7,909 nucleotides of DNA from an uncultured Desulfobacterales bacterium (lineage in GTDB: Bacteria; Desulfobacterota; Desulfobacteria; Desulfobacterales; G020354645). The DNA lies in assembly GCA_947259865.1 (NCBI GenBank), contig CAMYNZ010000267.1:1-7909 (forward strand), in the 5' to 3' direction. The notes beneath the pieces were generated by a model. The model was not told where the DNA came from and did no database searches. It saw only the letters and a list, made by a program, of their open reading frames with translations. Shown in pieces: positions 293 through 7,909 of this stretch. The position numbers and the translations under genes are program-made. Every line of letters begins with the position of its first letter. Position 1 is the stretch's first letter.

Positions 293-1000
293 ATGCCCTT
301 GTTAGAGGTAGAAAATGTCGTTTCCGGTTATGGACGTACCGATGTCCTTCACGGCGTTTCGATATGCGTTGAACGGGATGAGATCGTCACCATAATCGGG
401 CCCAATGGCGCTGGGAAATCCACCCTGTTCAAAACCATCATGGGCTACCTGATACCCAGGTCCGGAAAGGTTATATTTTCGGAAGAAGATTTAACCCAAT
501 TAAAACCCAATCACAAGGTGGAAAAAGGAATAGCCTACGTTCCGCAACTCGATAATACGTTTCCTTCGTTAACCATTCGGGAAAATTTGGAAATGGGCGG
601 CTTCTCAAAGAACAGTGAAGCGCTGCAGCAAGGAATTGAAACTGCCTACAGTACATTTCCCATCCTGAGTGACCGCAGAAACCAGCGTGCCCGCACCCTC
701 AGCGGTGGGCAACGGCAAATGTTGGCCATGAGCATGGCTCTGATGACCGAGCCCGATCTTTTATTATTAGATGAACCCTCGGCGGGACTCTCCCCGAAAA
801 TTTCCGATGAGGTTTTTAATCAAATAATGAGCCTGCACCAAAAGGGGATCGGTGTGCTCATCATTGAGCAAGATGCGCATCGATCTTTAAGCATATCCGA
901 TAGAGGATATGTGCTGGCCCTGGGGCAGAACCATTTTGACGGGTCGGCTGATACAATCCTGAATGATCCACAGATAAAAGAAGCTTTTTTAGGTGACTGA
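293..1000 (+). CDS. livF: LIV-type ABC transporter ATP-binding protein (LivF-like)
   Basis: A 235-residue cytoplasmic ATPase of the branched-chain/polar amino-acid importer family, complete and of normal LivF length. Walker A GPNGAGKST is at residues 36-44, the Q-loop Gln at 85, the ABC signature LSGGQ at 136-140, and Walker B LLLLDE at 156-161, followed by PSAGLSP. The stretch IIEQDAHRSLSISDRGYVL replaces the classical H-loop, as is usual in LivF, and the C-terminus IKEAFLGD is also LivF-like. The ATG at 293 has GGGGGA (277-282) about 10 bp upstream. With the truncated LivG it should form the ATPase pair that drives import; the permease and binding-protein genes must lie outside the window. 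The next gene starts only 30 bp downstream, so cotranscription with the catabolic genes is likely. An imino-acid substrate is inferred from context only. Confidence 0.93.
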   Translation: MPLLEVENVVSGYGRTDVLHGVSICVERDEIVTIIGPNGAGKSTLFKTIMGYLIPRSGKVIFSEEDLTQLKPNHKVEKGIAYVPQLDNTFPSLTIRENLEMGGFSKNSEALQQGIETAYSTFPILSDRRNQRARTLSGGQRQMLAMSMALMTEPDLLLLDEPSAGLSPKISDEVFNQIMSLHQKGIGVLIIEQDAHRSLSISDRGYVLALGQNHFDGSADTILNDPQIKEAFLGD

Positions 1001-1030: not shown

Positions 1031-2074
1031 ATGAATTTCACAAAAATCATAACCGCAATTGATACACATACAGAGGGGAATCCGGAGCGGGTGGTCACGG
1101 GCGGGATACCATCTATTCCCGGCAAAACCATGCTTGAGAAATCAGAGTATGCACGCGATAATTTGGATTATCTTCGCACCATGCTGGTACATGAACCCCG
1201 GGGCCACGTCAATATGTATGCCGCTCTCCTTGTTCCGCCTGCTGTAGAAGAAGCAGACATTGGGGTGCTGTATTTAGAGCCGGGTGGGTATCCAACCATG
1301 TGTGGCCATGGAACCATTGCGATCTGCAGCGTTTTAGTAGAGACGGGCATCATCGAAGCCCGGGAGCCTGAAACCGTTATCGCGCTGGATACGCTCGCCG
1401 GACTCGTGCGAGCCAGGGTGGCCGTAAAGGATGGCAGGGCCGAATCCGTTACCATCCGTAACGTACCGTCCTTTCTGTATAAGGCGGATGTAGAACTGGA
1501 TGTTCCCGAGGTGGGCCGCGTGAAGCTGGATATTGCTTACGGGGGCAACTTTTACGCTATCGTGGAGGCTGAAAGGGTGGGGCTGGAGGTAAAAACCGAG
1601 AATTTGAATAAACTCATATCCTTGGGTGCCAGAATATGGCAGGCAGTCAACCAACAGGTTGAGATCCATCACCCTCAGGAACCGCAGATAGATTGTGTCA
1701 ATTATGTGGAGTTCAGCGCTCCAGCAACTCATCCAGAGGCCACCATGAAAAATGCCGTGGTGGTACCCCCGGCGGGCATGGACCGGTCTCCTTGCGGTAC
1801 GGGGACCTGCGCCAAGATGGCAACCCTCTATTCAAAAGGGAAACTCAGCCTGAAGAAGGAATTTGTTCACGAAAGCATCATCGGAACGCTGTTTTACGGT
1901 GAACTCTTAGAAGAAACGAACGTAGGGGAATATCCGGCGGTGGTGCCGACCATTCGAGGCAGTGCTTATATCACGGGGATTCACCAGTTTGTGGTTGACC
2001 CCAGAGACCCGTTTCCCGGGGGCTTTCAGCTCGGAAAAATGGAGAAGCTGTATGGTTTTGGATTTAGAAGCTGA
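1031..2074 (+). CDS. proline racemase family protein (copy 1; proline racemase or hydroxyproline 2-epimerase)
   Basis: A 347-residue cofactor-independent racemase/epimerase of the proline racemase family, which inverts the alpha carbon of proline or hydroxyproline using two cysteines as acid and base. Both are visible: Cys91 in MCGHGTIA and Cys255 in DRSPCGTGTCAK. The second Cys argues against a trans-3-hydroxyproline dehydratase, in which it is Thr. The N-terminus IDTHTEGNPERVVTGG, the EPRGH stretch (55-59) and the C-terminal VDPRDPFPGGF are family hallmarks. The length and the IDTHTEG form resemble proline racemases more than the shorter hydroxyproline epimerases (about 310 residues, from memory). 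The ATG at 1031 has AGGA at 1021-1024. It follows livF by 30 bp and precedes a DapA-family gene by 38 bp, so it is probably in the same operon. Context favours hydroxyproline as substrate, but proline is not excluded. It aligns without gaps to the second copy over at least the first 255 residues. Confidence 0.88.
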   Translation: MNFTKIITAIDTHTEGNPERVVTGGIPSIPGKTMLEKSEYARDNLDYLRTMLVHEPRGHVNMYAALLVPPAVEEADIGVLYLEPGGYPTMCGHGTIAICSVLVETGIIEAREPETVIALDTLAGLVRARVAVKDGRAESVTIRNVPSFLYKADVELDVPEVGRVKLDIAYGGNFYAIVEAERVGLEVKTENLNKLISLGARIWQAVNQQVEIHHPQEPQIDCVNYVEFSAPATHPEATMKNAVVVPPAGMDRSPCGTGTCAKMATLYSKGKLSLKKEFVHESIIGTLFYGELLEETNVGEYPAVVPTIRGSAYITGIHQFVVDPRDPFPGGFQLGKMEKLYGFGFRS

Positions 2075-2112: not shown

Positions 2113-2985
2113 GTGAAAGAACTTAAGGGAATCTGCGCCGCCTTGTGCACACCATTTACGGATGATGGTGAAAAAGTTGATGAAACCGCAATCAAAGACC
2201 ACATCGATTCAATGTTGGAAGCCGGGATTCACATTATTCTGGTTTGCGGCGGAACCGGTGAATTTGCTTATCTGAGGCCTGAGGAGAGAAAAAGGATTGC
2301 CGAGATTGCCGCAAAACATATCGATGGCAGAGCCGGCTTTATGGTTCAAACATCGGCCATCAATACGGCCGACGCGATCGAGTACGCCCGGCACGCTGAA
2401 GGAGTTGGTGCGGATTGTCTACTGATTTTACCACCTTATTTTGAAGGGCCTGACAGCGAAGGGGTTTACTACCATTATGAGAAGATCGCCGAGGCCATTA
2501 AGATTCCGATCATGACCTATAATATTCCAGTCCACTCGGGCATTGATCTCACCCCGGCTTTATTTAAGCGTCTTATGGAGATCGACAACATTCAATATAT
2601 CAAAGACAGTACCGCTGATCTCATTCGAATTCAGGAACTGCTTGCCATGGGAGCCAACGTATTCAACGGAGCGGATCCGATTGCTTTCTTCAGTCTGGCA
2701 GCCGGATGCCCGGGGTGCGTATGGGGCGCCCCCAACGCGATGCCAAAGGAGGCTGTTAATCTCTTCAACTTTGTTGAATCGGGAAAACTGGCTGAAGCGG
2801 CGGATCTATGGAAAAGCATGTTTCCTGCCAATCTCTTCTTCTGGACCCACGTATACAATGCCTCGGTCAAGGCAGCCACGAATCTGTCCGGCAGAAAAGT
2901 AGGTCCCTGCCGCAAGCCCGTTCAAGCCTTAACGGATGCTGAAATGAGCGAACTGCGGGAGGCTTTAAAGCCGTTGGGGATATAG
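2113..2985 (+). CDS. DapA/NAL superfamily lyase or deaminase (copy 1)
   Basis: A 290-residue TIM-barrel enzyme of the dihydrodipicolinate synthase/N-acetylneuraminate lyase superfamily, which works through a Schiff base between substrate and lysine. The carboxylate-binding motif GGTGE is at 46-50, a conserved Tyr109 in PPYF, the catalytic Tyr136 in TYNIP and the Schiff-base Lys164 in YIKDST. Where E. coli DapA has Arg138, which binds aspartate semialdehyde, this protein has His141 (YNIPVHSG), so lysine biosynthesis is unlikely. Hydroxyproline pathways use a member of this superfamily (LhpC-type) to deaminate pyrroline-4-hydroxy-2-carboxylate to alpha-ketoglutarate semialdehyde. Its place between racemase genes and upstream of a D-amino-acid dehydrogenase suggests that role (inference). 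A 4-hydroxy-2-oxoglutarate aldolase or another 2-keto acid aldolase is also possible. The start is GTG with a strong ribosome binding site. Family certain, substrate uncertain. Confidence 0.87.
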   Translation: MKELKGICAALCTPFTDDGEKVDETAIKDHIDSMLEAGIHIILVCGGTGEFAYLRPEERKRIAEIAAKHIDGRAGFMVQTSAINTADAIEYARHAEGVGADCLLILPPYFEGPDSEGVYYHYEKIAEAIKIPIMTYNIPVHSGIDLTPALFKRLMEIDNIQYIKDSTADLIRIQELLAMGANVFNGADPIAFFSLAAGCPGCVWGAPNAMPKEAVNLFNFVESGKLAEAADLWKSMFPANLFFWTHVYNASVKAATNLSGRKVGPCRKPVQALTDAEMSELREALKPLGI

Positions 2986-3145
2986 GTTCAAAGGTTCAAG
3001 GTTCAGGGTTCAAGTGTCAGGGAAAATTGAGGAATTTAGGGATTAAAAAAAATCCTGAAAACTAGACTTTGTATCGTGAATCAAGCGCCTCTCTTTTTTG
3101 CCTCAAACCTCTAACCTATGACCTGAACCTTTGAACCCTGAACCC
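2985..3145. repeat. GGTTCA-type intergenic repeat with inverted arms
   Basis: Immediately after the stop codon of the first DapA-like gene, GGTTCA-type units recur on the + strand (2985, 2993, 3000 and 3007, with variable A or G spacers). The complementary units (TGAACC, TTGAACC) lie at about 3121-3145. Two 14-bp perfect inverted matches can be seen: 2985-2998 with 3124-3137, and 3000-3013 with 3131-3144. The roughly 105-bp interior holds an A-run (3045-3052) and a T-run (3094-3099) and has no gene I can support. Transcribed, it could fold into a long, register-shifting stem. From memory, similar GGTTCAA repeats occur in intergenic DNA of Desulfobacterota; this is not proof of origin. Confidence 0.7.
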
Positions 3146-3173
3146 GGAACGTTGACCCCTGATCCTATATTAC

Positions 3174-3187: not shown

Positions 3188-4195
3188 ATGAAAATCAAGC
3201 ATGTATTCTCATCCATCGACTCCCATACCGGCGGGCAGCCCACCCGAACCATTACCGCCGGAATTCCATACATCCCCGGATCCACCATTGTGGAAAGAAT
3301 GACCTATTTAAAAGAAAACATGGACTGGATACGAACGTCTTTAATGTTTGAACCTCGGGGTCGCGACATTATGTCCGGTGTTATTCTAACTGAACCGACT
3401 CACCCCGACGCAGATATCGGGGTAATTTTTATTGAAACCACCGGCTACCTGCCCATGTGCGGCCATGACACCATCGGTGTCTGCACCGCCCTGGTGGAAA
3501 CCGGTATGGTCAAGGTGGAGGAACCGGTGACCCATATCGTATTGGATACCCCTGCCGGGTTGACACGTATTCGAGTGAATGTTGAAAACGGCAGGGCCAA
3601 AAGCGTCACTTTTAAAAATGTACCTTCGTTTGTGCTGGCTGAAGACGCCGAGGTCGATGTGCCGGGATTTGGAAAAATTATCATGGATGTTGCTTACGGC
3701 GGCAATGTGTATGCAATCCTGCCGGCGGAGGCCGTCGGCCTTGAGATTCGCCCCGAAAATGCGAGCATGGTCATTGACATCGGCCGCAGGATCAAAGCGG
3801 CGGTGAACGCCCAGTTAAAGATACAGCATCCCGAAAAAGAGTTTATCAATGAGTGTACGCATGTGGAATTTTACGGGCAACCCTCTTCACCGGAAGCCCA
3901 TCTGAAGAATACGGTCTTTTTTGCCGAATCGGGGATTGACCGATCACCCTGCGGCACCGGCACGTCCGCCAAACTCGCCGTTCTGCACGCCAGGGGCGAG
4001 CTGAAGCTCGATCAGGAGTTCGTCCATGAGAGCATCATCGGGAGCATATTCAAGGCCAGGATTGTCGAGCAGGGCCGTGTCGGGCCTTTTGCAGCGATTG
4101 TCCCGGAGGTGACCGGAAGTGCTCACATCATGGGAATCAATCAATCAGTCATAGATCCCGATGATCCCCACTGGAAGGGTTTTCTCTTGAGTTAA
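3188..4195 (+). CDS. proline racemase family protein (copy 2)
   Basis: A 335-residue proline racemase family enzyme when started at ATG 3188. An in-frame ATG at 3131 would add 19 residues encoded partly by the intergenic repeat and not matching the family, so it was not chosen. From 3188 the protein aligns without gaps to copy 1 from its Met. The two catalytic cysteines fall at the same positions: Cys91 in MCGHDTIG and Cys255 in DRSPCGTGTSAK. Having both argues for racemase/epimerase activity rather than dehydratase. The N-terminus IDSHTGGQPTRTITAG differs from copy 1 (IDTHTEG), and Asp94 replaces Gly next to the catalytic His. The substrate or preferred stereoisomer may therefore differ (inference). 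It follows the repeat spacer and precedes the second DapA-like gene by 44 bp. Substrate candidates are proline, 4-hydroxyproline and a related cyclic imino acid. Confidence 0.88.
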   Translation: MKIKHVFSSIDSHTGGQPTRTITAGIPYIPGSTIVERMTYLKENMDWIRTSLMFEPRGRDIMSGVILTEPTHPDADIGVIFIETTGYLPMCGHDTIGVCTALVETGMVKVEEPVTHIVLDTPAGLTRIRVNVENGRAKSVTFKNVPSFVLAEDAEVDVPGFGKIIMDVAYGGNVYAILPAEAVGLEIRPENASMVIDIGRRIKAAVNAQLKIQHPEKEFINECTHVEFYGQPSSPEAHLKNTVFFAESGIDRSPCGTGTSAKLAVLHARGELKLDQEFVHESIIGSIFKARIVEQGRVGPFAAIVPEVTGSAHIMGINQSVIDPDDPHWKGFLLS

Positions 4196-4239: not shown

Positions 4240-5121
4240 ATGAATAAATTAAGAGGTACTTTTACGGTGATGGTGACGCCTTTCACCCCGGATGAACAGT
4301 TGGATGAAAAAGGATTCCGCGAAAACATTGACTGGTATATTGATGAAGGGATCCATGGCGTTATTTGCCTGGGAAGCACCGGCGAGTTTGCCAACCTGTC
4401 AATTGAAGAACGACAACGCGTCATCGATCTCACGGTCGATCAGGTCAAGGGCCGGGTTCCGATAATCGCAGGTACGGCTGCCAACTCAACCCGCGAGACC
4501 ATCGCAATGACAAAATATGCCAAAGACGCTGGCGCCGATGCTGCCCTGATTGTCGCGCCTTTTTATGGCTTGCCGACCCAGGATGACCTATATGAACATT
4601 ACAAGTCCATAGCGGAAAATGTGTCAATTCCGATTATGGTCTATAACAATCCCGGGTTTTCAGGGGTTGACATGCTACCCCCCCTCATTGAAAGGCTCGC
4701 AGCGATTGACAACATCCTGTATGTTAAAGAAAGCACCGGGGATATAAAAAGGGTTCATGAATTATTGCAGCGCTGCGGCGACAGCATCGATGTATGGTGC
4801 GGCTGGGATGACCTGGTCTATGAATTTTTCTTATTGAGCTGCCGGGGCTGGGTAGCCCCCATCGCAAACTTTATGCCCGGGACCGCAGCCGAGCTCTTCA
4901 CGCTGGCTGAAGAGAAAGCGTATGATAAAGCCAAAGCGCTTTTTTTCAAGATGCTTCCCTTACTGAATTATCTGGAAGAGGGCCAGCTACTGGCCAAAGT
5001 AAAAGAAGCGATGAACCTGATAGGCAAAGCGGGCGGAAAACCAAGAAGGCCGTTTCTCCCTATCACTGAAGAACAAAAAAACGAATTACGCAGAATGTTA
5101 AGCGAGGTCGGGTTAATCTAA
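4240..5121 (+). CDS. DapA/NAL superfamily lyase or deaminase (copy 2)
   Basis: A 293-residue Schiff-base TIM-barrel enzyme of the DapA/NAL superfamily, clearly paralogous to the gene at 2113 but well diverged. GSTGE is at 45-49, Tyr109 in APFY, catalytic Tyr135 in VYNNP and Schiff-base Lys163 in YVKEST. The residue matching the substrate-binding Arg138 of E. coli DapA is Phe140 (YNNPGFSG), so it is not a typical lysine-biosynthesis DapA. The YNxPxxSG form is closer to N-acetylneuraminate lyase-like members. AAGGAG (4229-4234) precedes the ATG by 5 bp. The order racemase then lyase repeats that of the first pair, and the dehydrogenase genes follow 37 bp downstream, so all are probably one transcript. 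A pyrroline-hydroxycarboxylate deaminase role is inferred; an aldolase is the main alternative. Confidence 0.87.
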   Translation: MNKLRGTFTVMVTPFTPDEQLDEKGFRENIDWYIDEGIHGVICLGSTGEFANLSIEERQRVIDLTVDQVKGRVPIIAGTAANSTRETIAMTKYAKDAGADAALIVAPFYGLPTQDDLYEHYKSIAENVSIPIMVYNNPGFSGVDMLPPLIERLAAIDNILYVKESTGDIKRVHELLQRCGDSIDVWCGWDDLVYEFFLLSCRGWVAPIANFMPGTAAELFTLAEEKAYDKAKALFFKMLPLLNYLEEGQLLAKVKEAMNLIGKAGGKPRRPFLPITEEQKNELRRMLSEVGLI

Positions 5122-5158: not shown

Positions 5159-5389
5159 ATGCCGAACAGAAGTGCTGATGTAGTCGTCATCGGCGGAGGA
5201 GTCGTCGGAACAGCGATTGCGTACTTTCTGGTCCGGAATAATATGGACGTCATTCTGGTGGAAAAGGGAGCGATTACGGCGGGCACTTCCGGCAGCTGCG
5301 AAGGCGATGTTTTAGTCTGTGATAAGGTGCCCGGATTCGACAGTCAATTGACCAAACTTAGCCAGGAACAGTCAATTGACCAAACTTAG
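5159..5389 (+). pseudogene. N-terminal fragment of the DAO-fold dehydrogenase subunit
   Basis: A 76-residue piece containing only the nucleotide-binding beta-alpha-beta unit (IGGGVVG, Glu35) and about 30 further residues. Residues up to Gln69 belong to the ancestral protein. The last seven (EQSIDQT) are out-of-frame reading of the second repeat copy before the TAG at 5387-5389. It is too short to work alone. Confidence 0.8.
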
Positions 5390-5395
5390 CCAGGA
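5340..5395. repeat. perfect 28-bp tandem duplication causing a frameshift
   Basis: Positions 5340-5367 and 5368-5395 are identical over all 28 bases. The flanking bases differ on both sides (G5339 versus A5367, A5368 versus T5396). Because 28 is not a multiple of three, the extra copy throws the dehydrogenase gene out of frame. Each unit contains the 10-bp palindrome GTCAATTGAC (5343-5352, 5371-5380). The lack of any divergence points to a recent event or an assembly artefact. Confidence 0.97.
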
Positions 5396-6362
5396 TCTTT
5401 TTCCGGAAATTGTCGATGAATTAGACTATGATATCAGTTGGATACAGAAGGGAAGCCTGCTTGCGATTGAAAACGAAGCGGAGATGGAGGAGGCCAAGAA
5501 GTTTTGCTCTCGGTTAGATGCCGAAGGACTACCGGTTAGAATTCTGGACAAGTATGAGGTCCACGAGGATGAGCCCTATCTGGCCTCCGATATTGTCGGT
5601 GGTATGGAAACGGATTGTGACGGTTCCCTGAACCCCATGGCCCTGGCCTATGGACTGGTTCATGGCGCTAAAAAGATGGGCGCCGAAGTTTTGACTTTTA
5701 GTGCTGTGACCGACATCCGGCTGGATGCCGACGGCGGCATCGAGAGGGTCGTTACCGAAAAAGAGGAAATCGTCACCAGGCGGGTCGTCAATGCTGCCGG
5801 TGTCTGGGCACCGGAAATTGGCAAACTGGTGGGGCTGGATATCCCCATCAGGTCCAGACAAGGCCAGATGCTGGTGGCTGAGCGTACTTTCCCCGTTGCC
5901 AGACGAAAAGTAATGGAATTCGGGTATATGATGGCCAAATTTGAAAGCAGTAATTATGACCGCAATGTAACACCCGAAATGGAAAAATACGGGGTTGCGC
6001 TAGTGTTTGAACCCACCGAAGCAGCGAATTTTCTGATTGGCAGCAGTCGCCGGTTCGTGGGCAGGGACACGTCATGCCACATTGACGTTCTACGTGCCAT
6101 GGCCCAGCGGGCCATTCGGTTTTTCCCCGTGATCAAGGATATTAAAATCATTCGCAGTTATGCGGGGCTCAGGCCTTTTACGCCGGACCATCTGCCCATT
6201 ATTTCAGAAACCGAGGTGCCGGGCTTTTACGTGGCGGCCGGTCATGAAGGCGATGGCATCGGGCTTTCCCTGATCACCGGCAAATTAATATCCCAAATGA
6301 TCTGCGGCGAGCAACCGTCAGTATCAACCGAACTTTTAAAGCTGAGCCGGTTTAAGGGATAG
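5376..6362 (+). pseudogene. C-terminal part of the DAO-fold dehydrogenase subunit
   Basis: The open frame resumes in the second repeat copy, overlapping the N-terminal fragment by 14 bp. If read from TTG 5376 it gives 328 residues, but no ribosome binding site supports that start; the frame is simply the continuation of the interrupted gene. It holds the substrate and FAD-cap regions, including QGQMLVAE in the middle and the C-terminal DAO segment with AGHEGDGIGLS, but lacks the GxGxxG motif. Production by reinitiation is conceivable, yet it could not bind FAD normally by itself. Confidence 0.8.
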
Positions 6363-6363
6363 C

Positions 6364-6642
6364 ATGGATGTCGGAGATACGTTTGAAATTGAAGTGGACG
6401 GACGGACTATTTTAGCCCGCAGCGGACAGACGATTGCCGAGGCACTTTTGGCGAACGGGTTGAGAGGGTTGCGGGTGACAAGGAAGCAAGCCCCCCGGGG
6501 TGTCTACTGCGGCATGGGAATCTGCTATGAATGCCGGATGATTGTCAACGGCGTTCCCAATGTTCGCACGTGTATGACCCCGGCAACACCGGGTTGCAGA
6601 ATAGCCACCCAGGATGATTCAAGGATAACGCTTGAGAAATGA
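6364..6642 (+). CDS. [2Fe-2S] subunit of heteromeric amino-acid dehydrogenase (LhpF/SoxA-N-like)
   Basis: A 92-residue plant-type ferredoxin-fold protein (Fer2_4 type). Cysteines at 49, 54, 57 and 70 (C-x4-C-x2-C-x12-C) lie in RGVYCGMGICYECR and VRTCMTP, the standard [2Fe-2S] ligands of this small subunit. The N-terminal part, VDGRTILARSGQTIAEAL, is the usual beta-grasp opening. In D-hydroxyproline dehydrogenase and opine oxidase complexes this subunit passes electrons between the flavin subunits. In sarcosine oxidase alpha a similar domain is fused to the N-terminus. It starts one base after the stop of the DAO-fold subunit and overlaps the next gene by 4 bp (ATGA), which indicates translational coupling. 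It is intact, unlike the subunit upstream. A sixth Cys at 78 has no assigned role. The complex type is recognised with good confidence; the amine substrate is inferred. Confidence 0.88.
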   Translation: MDVGDTFEIEVDGRTILARSGQTIAEALLANGLRGLRVTRKQAPRGVYCGMGICYECRMIVNGVPNVRTCMTPATPGCRIATQDDSRITLEK

Positions 6643-7909
6643 AAGAAGCTGATCTGGTCATAATCGGAGGAGGCCCGGCAGGAATCACAGCTGCAACCGA
6701 GGCAGCCCGCCTGGGGGCCTCTGTTGCTATCATTGATGAAAACCAGCATCTGGGTGGAAAAGTATTGAGCCCGACGAGCAGCACAATCCAGGCAGGTGTT
6801 TCGGATGACATCGAGAAAAACCTCCGGCGTCAAATACTGAACGACTTCGATCGGGTCAAGGATAAAATATCGCTATTTTTGAACACAGAGGTGTGGGATA
6901 TTGTTGATCAAAGGATGGTCCTGCTTTATTCAAAACTCGGGTCTGCAGAACAATTAAAAAGCATCAAGGGCGACAAATTGATTATTTCCGTTGGCGCCTT
7001 TGAAAAAGCGATTCCCTTCCCGGGGTGGACGCTTCCCGGTGTGTTTTCGGTGGGTGGGTTAAATACGCTGGTTAAAAAGGGAATCCTGCCCGGGAAACGT
7101 TTTTTGCTTGCCGGAACCGGTCCCCTGCAGCTTGTATTGGCAAATCATTTAATCAATGCCGGTGCCTGCTTAAGCGCCATTGTTAATGCCGCTTCGCTGA
7201 AGGACATTTCGGCAAGTGCCTTACAGCTTATTTCAAGTATTGACTATCCGAAAATACGATCCGGATTTGACTACCTGTGGAACATCCAAAGACATCACAT
7301 ACCTGTTTATCGCTCTCATATTATTTCCAAAGTATTTGGTACCAGCGAGGTAGAAAAGACGGAGATTGTAAAAGTTGACCGATCTTGGAATCCGATAAGG
7401 GGAACAGAAAAGGAAATCAACGTCGATTCGGTTGCATACGGGTTCGGCCTGATTCCGTGTACCGAGCTGACCCGGCAGTGTGGTTGCAAACACATCTACG
7501 ATGAAGGTCGCGGCTATTGGAGAGTCGATCTCAACGAAAGAATGGAAACCAACGTACCTGGAATATTTGCGGCCGGCGACGGTCTGAGCGTCAAGGGTTA
7601 TTCCGCGGCCATCGAGGAGGGCAGAGTGGCTGCTCTGGAGGCCTGCACCCAGCTTGACCGTGTGGACAGAAGAGAAGCCGATAGATTACTGCGACCCGCT
7701 TTAAGAAAATTAAAACGATTCAATCGATTTGGTCAAATCATGGATGCCATATCAACGCCGAGGCCGGGGATATACAATATCCTGTCTGATGATACGGTTG
7801 TGTGCCGCTGCGAAGAGGTAACCATGCATGATGTGATCTCTGCGGTGGCGGACGGCGCCGGAGATGTGAACGACATTAAAAGAAGAACCCGACTGGGGAT
7901 GGGGCACTG
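6639..7909 (+). CDS. NAD(P)/FAD-type oxidoreductase subunit with C-terminal BFD-like [2Fe-2S] domain (LhpE/OoxA-like), 3' truncated
   Basis: The frame opens at ATG 6639, overlapping the previous stop (ATGA), and stays open for 423 codons plus two bases to the right edge. Residues 10-15 (GGGPAG) form the FAD-binding loop and Asp33 ends the second beta strand. A second Rossmann-type motif, AGTGPLQL, is at 158-165, and FAAGDG (310-315) binds the flavin near the end. CRCEEVT supplies Cys389 and Cys391 of a bacterioferritin-ferredoxin-like [2Fe-2S] domain. The last two bases (TG, after MGH) would begin the third ligand, Cys424. This layout matches the large subunit of hydroxyproline dehydrogenase, opine oxidase and HcnB-type enzymes; about 40-60 residues are probably missing. 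It likely accepts electrons from the DAO-fold subunit through the [2Fe-2S] protein and hands them on, to an acceptor that cannot be read here. The frame shows no lesion in the visible part. Confidence 0.88.
   Translation, partial: MKEADLVIIGGGPAGITAATEAARLGASVAIIDENQHLGGKVLSPTSSTIQAGVSDDIEKNLRRQILNDFDRVKDKISLFLNTEVWDIVDQRMVLLYSKLGSAEQLKSIKGDKLIISVGAFEKAIPFPGWTLPGVFSVGGLNTLVKKGILPGKRFLLAGTGPLQLVLANHLINAGACLSAIVNAASLKDISASALQLISSIDYPKIRSGFDYLWNIQRHHIPVYRSHIISKVFGTSEVEKTEIVKVDRSWNPIRGTEKEINVDSVAYGFGLIPCTELTRQCGCKHIYDEGRGYWRVDLNERMETNVPGIFAAGDGLSVKGYSAAIEEGRVAALEACTQLDRVDRREADRLLRPALRKLKRFNRFGQIMDAISTPRPGIYNILSDDTVVCRCEEVTMHDVISAVADGAGDVNDIKRRTRLGMGH

Follow-up and report, generated by a model that had tools for sequence, protein, structure and literature searches.

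A perfect 28-bp tandem duplication breaks a predicted D-hydroxyproline-type dehydrogenase gene in one Desulfobacterales-like record: recent private mutation or assembly error?

D-hydroxyproline dehydrogenase is encoded by tandem beta, gamma and alpha genes and has flavin and 2Fe-2S subunits; its beta subunit is catalytically active on its own (PMC4575208, in the part describing the enzyme). The DNA analysed here, a stretch of 7909 bases referred to as the window, resembles the alpha4 beta4 gamma4 enzymes of Pseudomonas aeruginosa and Azospirillum brasilense in its beta-gamma-alpha gene order (same part of PMC4575208). It is also like these systems in having racemase/epimerase-family and DapA-family genes alongside. 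Genes of both families have a place in the bacterial hydroxyproline pathway. Unlike these systems, the window has a broken beta gene, two racemase/epimerase-family and two DapA-family genes, and a substrate that is only predicted; its three subunits also differ in reaching no NCBIfam cut-off among the matches listed.

For the lesion itself, the closest described cases are pneumococcal. Acapsular serotype 8 pneumococci lost their capsule by a tandem duplication in wchA, and, as in the window, short tandem duplications within a reading frame inactivate the pneumococcal capsule genes cap8E/wchA and tts (both from part of PMC4022640, whose reference list includes Waite et al., 2001 and 2003, with titles on duplications and phase variation). 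The capsule gene cap3A is a further case of such a duplication. Unlike these duplications, the one in the window gave no evidence that it reverts, recurs or varies from relative to relative. An ordinary recent pseudogene allele is a third point of comparison. Like the window, it has one private lesion in an otherwise conserved gene, and the sole difference noted is that the lesion in the window is not proven to be real. The features of the window are as follows.

293 to 1000, plus strand: ABC transporter ATPase, most like LivF/UrtE, under the curated cut-offs
1031 to 2074, plus strand: proline racemase/hydroxyproline epimerase family, paralogue 1, cysteines 91 and 255
2113 to 2985, plus strand: DHDPS/DapA-family lyase, paralogue 1
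3188 to 4195, plus strand: proline racemase/hydroxyproline epimerase family, paralogue 2, cysteines 91 and 255
4240 to 5121, plus strand: DHDPS/DapA-family lyase, paralogue 2
5159 to 5389, plus strand: N-terminal piece of the DAO-family dehydrogenase, 76 aa and stop, glycine-rich FAD-binding motif at residue 12
5340 to 5367, plus strand: unit copy 1, 28 bp, in the reading frame of the dehydrogenase gene
5368 to 5395, plus strand: unit copy 2, 28 bp, identical, shifts the frame onto a TAG stop at 5387-5389
5376 to 6362, plus strand: C-terminal piece of the same DAO-family gene, 328-aa open frame starting at TTG 5376, without a GxGxxG-type motif
6364 to 6642, plus strand: 2Fe-2S protein (Fer2_4), predicted gamma subunit
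6639 to 7907, plus strand: FAD/NAD-linked protein (Pyr_redox_2 and Fer2_BFD), predicted alpha subunit, runs past the window end

The DAO, 2Fe-2S and FAD/NAD genes lie in tandem, which is the beta-gamma-alpha order with the beta gene broken in this record. The broken gene is predicted to encode the beta subunit of a beta-gamma-alpha dehydrogenase of the D-hydroxyproline type. No NCBIfam cut-off was reached by the N-terminal piece (best 25 of 52 matches) or the C-terminal piece (15 of 15 matches), and none of these matches is named for D-hydroxyproline dehydrogenase. The same holds for the 2Fe-2S protein (its one match) and the FAD/NAD protein (best 25 of 82 matches). The name is kept as a prediction because no curated model is at its cut-off among the matches listed. 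Neither racemase-family protein reaches an NCBIfam cut-off among the matches listed, and the second DapA-family protein lies above that for dapA (245.2 vs 206.15).

In both racemase-family proteins the motifs MCGH and SPCGTGT hold cysteines 91 and 255, as located by motif rather than by alignment to a characterised enzyme. An archaeal ProR-like protein has the active-site pair Cys88-Cys251, near these positions, and judged against the part of that account dealing with the active site, both window proteins fit the Cys-Cys racemases/epimerases rather than the Cys-Thr dehydratases (PMC4364671). From the order of the dehydrogenase subunits and these Cys-Cys motifs, the cluster is predicted to serve proline/hydroxyproline catabolism.

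Positions 5340-5395 consist of two identical units, 5340-5367 and 5368-5395, with zero bases between them, and the perfect 28-bp tandem duplication described in an earlier note on this DNA is confirmed. A script scan found it to be the sole perfect tandem repeat with a period of 12-200 in the window; 100 first-order Markov simulations of the window's length gave no such repeat. The region is exactly twice the unit: the bases on either side do not extend it, and there is no junction microhomology. Each unit contains the 10-bp palindrome GTCAATTGAC. A hairpin-driven duplication was considered and rejected, as the single-stranded DNA fold of the repeat region is unremarkable (z −0.96; 33 of 200 shuffles fold equally well). 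No Rfam family matched at its gathering score, and an RNA-family explanation for the repeat was dropped. A terminator explanation was likewise rejected: one terminator-like site was found in the C-terminal piece, at 6099-6115, vs a shuffle average of 1.8.

The frame from ATG 5159 runs for 76 residues, the last seven of which (EQSIDQT) lie past the family-like sequence, and ends in the second unit at the TAG of 5387-5389. Pfam DAO (PF01266) is matched by both pieces, at profile positions 1-41 by the N-terminal piece and 65-353 by the C-terminal piece, and because these parts of the profile are complementary the two are taken as one gene. Since 28 is 3n+1, one FAD-dependent dehydrogenase is split in two. 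A GxGxxG-type motif was looked for in the C-terminal piece and none was found. The genes adjoining the broken dehydrogenase are open frames, and most of the 120 listed protein relatives are 387-411 residues long. The frame and the two Pfam halves support the earlier claim: the gene of the DAO-type (predicted catalytic) subunit is intact apart from the break that the duplication makes. The join quoted with that claim (SQLTKLSQ to DLFPEI) also fits the relatives when the N- and C-terminal pieces are laid on them separately. Given the predicted functions, the lesion may silence the central oxidation step of the pathway, as had been proposed, and a second copy of the gene may exist elsewhere.

A relative of the dehydrogenase is encoded at 11 genome-contig loci (L001-L011), the six nearest being titled Desulfobacterales, Desulfobacteraceae or Deltaproteobacteria; by these matches the gene is nearest to Desulfobacterales. 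In all six of the nearest loci (L001-L006) the unit is single, matching in 17 to 25 of its 28 bases, against 16 or fewer for the runner-up site in the roughly 600 bases scanned around the place, and none has an insertion there. No duplication was seen in the stretch covered in the more distant L007, L008, L009 and L011; L010 does not cover the place. On the protein side, 3013 of 7999 candidates scored were over threshold and 120 relatives were listed. The join is covered by 117 of these (the exceptions, left out here, are P0059, P0110 and P0111), and an inserted residue at the join was found in 0 of 117. The nearest listed protein is 92% identical to the C-terminal piece, and thus the window's own species is not among the proteins compared, although closer members may hide in 90%-identity clusters. 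The N-terminal piece, searched among short proteins only, yielded 10 short N-terminal homologues, none ending in the two-copy tail. Four short homologues (P0124, P0126, P0127 and P0129) end in unrelated tails at places other than the repeat, so that broken, erroneous or truncated versions of the gene seem to be present in other contigs. A family-wide search around G001, covering six genomes, gave matches at E ≤ 0.001 in G001 and G002 and none in the other four.

The one-copy form looks ancestral in these comparisons. The earlier note had held that two copies in all related strains would speak against a recent lesion; the relatives compared are instead single-copy (6/6 at the DNA level and 117/117 proteins). 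Among them, none being of the same species, the number of units is constant, and the variable copy number of a phase-variable locus was not found.

The remaining codons of the broken gene bear the mark of selection. For the C-terminal piece, dN/dS is 0.163 between the window and L001, 0.126 between the window and L002, and 0.108 between L001 and L002; private synonymous and nonsynonymous changes number 30 and 14 in the window, 20 and 9 in L001, and 54.5 and 19.5 in L002. The corresponding dN/dS values for the N-terminal piece are 0.080, 0.189 and 0.204. The window departs at one column of the C-terminal piece that is conserved in 116 of 117 relatives, and at no column of the N-terminal piece conserved at the 95% level. 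Relatives themselves depart from residues common to more than 95% of the others 0-2 times each in both pieces (first 58 of 117 relatives; the C-piece range is approximate). At 5294-5296, a less conserved place within GTSGxCEGD, the window has S where R, K or H (86, 19 and 1, respectively) stands in all 106 relatives that contain GTSG; 11 of the 117 are without the motif. Purifying selection is visible in the remaining codons, with no clear decay outside the repeat. From dN/dS and the conserved columns, selection on the gene lasted until very recent times or continues.

As in a recent pseudogene, the frame is broken and the rest of the gene is conserved. The identical copies, the purifying selection and the single-copy relatives together point to an event that is either recent or artefactual, and the lesion is, on these alignments, private among the relatives compared. 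That part of the earlier note, which had offered a very recent event, a reversible on/off repeat or an assembly error, stands; its reversible repeat finds no support, as no relative compared carries the repeat at this place.

Perfect tandem repeats of this kind are rare in the relatives. A sample of forty 20-kb stretches from the two nearest genomes (789,449 non-N bases) held two with a period of 12-200, of periods 24 and 12, and none longer than 24. Over 143,833 non-N bases, loci L001-L011 held none with a period of 12-200; some 10 kb of L001 is shared with the sample. From these counts a perfect, frame-breaking 28-bp duplication is unusual, and its rarity does not tell mutation from artefact. 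Literature searches gave nothing direct on short tandem duplications in bacteria nor, among the matches listed, on assembly artefacts of this kind.

The explanation we favour, over assembly error, is a recent private 28-bp duplication that turned the gene for the DAO-type (beta) subunit into a null allele, and we regard it as an even call. The tandem duplication would have arisen in one lineage, in a gene with a single unit. By the shift of +28 (3n+1) the second copy is read in the wrong frame, and translation would end within it, seven residues past the family-like sequence. The N-terminal piece retains the FAD-binding motif without the rest of the domain, and the C-terminal piece, if restarted at all, would be made without that motif. 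We infer that a living cell carries the duplication and has lost the enzyme, and that the lesion plays no part in regulation. Several observations count against a null mutation. A classic slippage product has junction microhomology. The repeat has none at either end, and simple slippage is therefore ill-suited to explain it. Perfect tandem duplications are rare in the assemblies of the relatives. The dN/dS of the C-terminal piece to L001 is slightly above the value between L001 and L002, a difference too small to show decay. A real null mutation would add to the cases in which a short tandem duplication abolishes gene function, this time in a gene of predicted catabolic role.

Against a null mutation stands the reading in which two contig or graph pieces with a 28-base overlap were joined untrimmed and the true gene is single-copy and intact. 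We consider this a serious possibility, if somewhat short of even. The lack of any mutation between the copies and of microhomology beyond the unit fits a concatenated overlap, the window may be a metagenome contig, the dehydrogenase gene carries no clear sign of relaxed selection, and the compared relatives are single-copy. It stays close because there is no junction homology and no other record with the lesion. An overlap of 28 bases is, however, not a usual assembler k-mer overlap, except near k=29; the common SPAdes and MEGAHIT k-mer sizes are not known to give it otherwise. The relatives' assemblies (the 789,449 sampled bases and L001-L011) also hold no perfect tandem repeat of period greater than 24, which argues against an artefact. 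If the repeat is an artefact, gene breaks by a perfect tandem repeat in a single record need read support before a pseudogene or a switch is called.

Reversible phase variation, in which gain of the 28-bp unit would turn the gene off and its precise loss would turn it on as in the pneumococcal capsule genes, appears very improbable. A perfect abutting repeat can in principle shed one unit, and the capsule duplications offer a precedent (in the part of PMC4022640 concerned with them). Extra copies were nevertheless found in 0 of 117 protein and 0 of 6 DNA relatives, and the two-copy tail in 0 of 10 short homologues. There are also two units only, with no junction homology to seed a new gain, and the gene is metabolic. 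As no compared relative shows the repeat at this place, a dedicated on/off switch is unsupported. It is a shade less probable again that a subpopulation of an uncultured Desulfobacterales relative has proline/hydroxyproline oxidation turned off by a reversible duplication, as a contingency switch in an environmental catabolic gene.

The two units could also be a long target-site duplication from between which a mobile element was removed exactly. Target-site duplications as long as 16-28 bp, which is unusual, have been reported from part of the current IS1202 group (PMC10132070, in the part on that group). Not one base of an element lies between the copies, and none of L001-L006 (few loci, and not of the same species) has an insertion here. 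Exact removal that leaves both target-site duplications would be unusual, and we find this footprint very improbable. Least credible is a functional two-copy form whose two parts are translated apart, through a restart close to the stop, and then assemble: the C-terminal frame does open at TTG 5376, 11 bases ahead of the N-terminal stop at 5387, but 0 of the 117 relatives covering the join are split there and the cut falls within a single Pfam domain, downstream of the FAD-binding motif.

The gene content of the cluster varies between relatives in the locus stretches compared. In L002, at 6036-6309 and 7352-7809, the first DapA-family gene has no match and the second is matched by its last 44 residues only; neither racemase gene nor the dehydrogenase is shortened there. 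In L004 no DapA-family match lies between the racemase and dehydrogenase genes, and a single racemase gene is present in each of L003 and L004. An apparent loss of the FAD/NAD subunit in L001 was dropped from consideration, as a run of 100 N (9168-9267) sits at that place. The records of L001 and of G001 and G002, titled chromosome, contain many runs of exactly 100 N. Such records look like joined contigs, and the neighbourhood across these runs is therefore unreliable.

Within the window, heptamer arrays flank the gap between two genes, with AGGTTCA at 2984-3022 and then on the opposite strand at 3122-3162. The reversed control of the 13-mer GGTTCAAGGTTCA occurs twice in G002 and in none of the other five genomes. 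The 13-mer itself is absent from G003, G004 and G006 and is found once in G005, 8 times in G002 and 17 times in G001.
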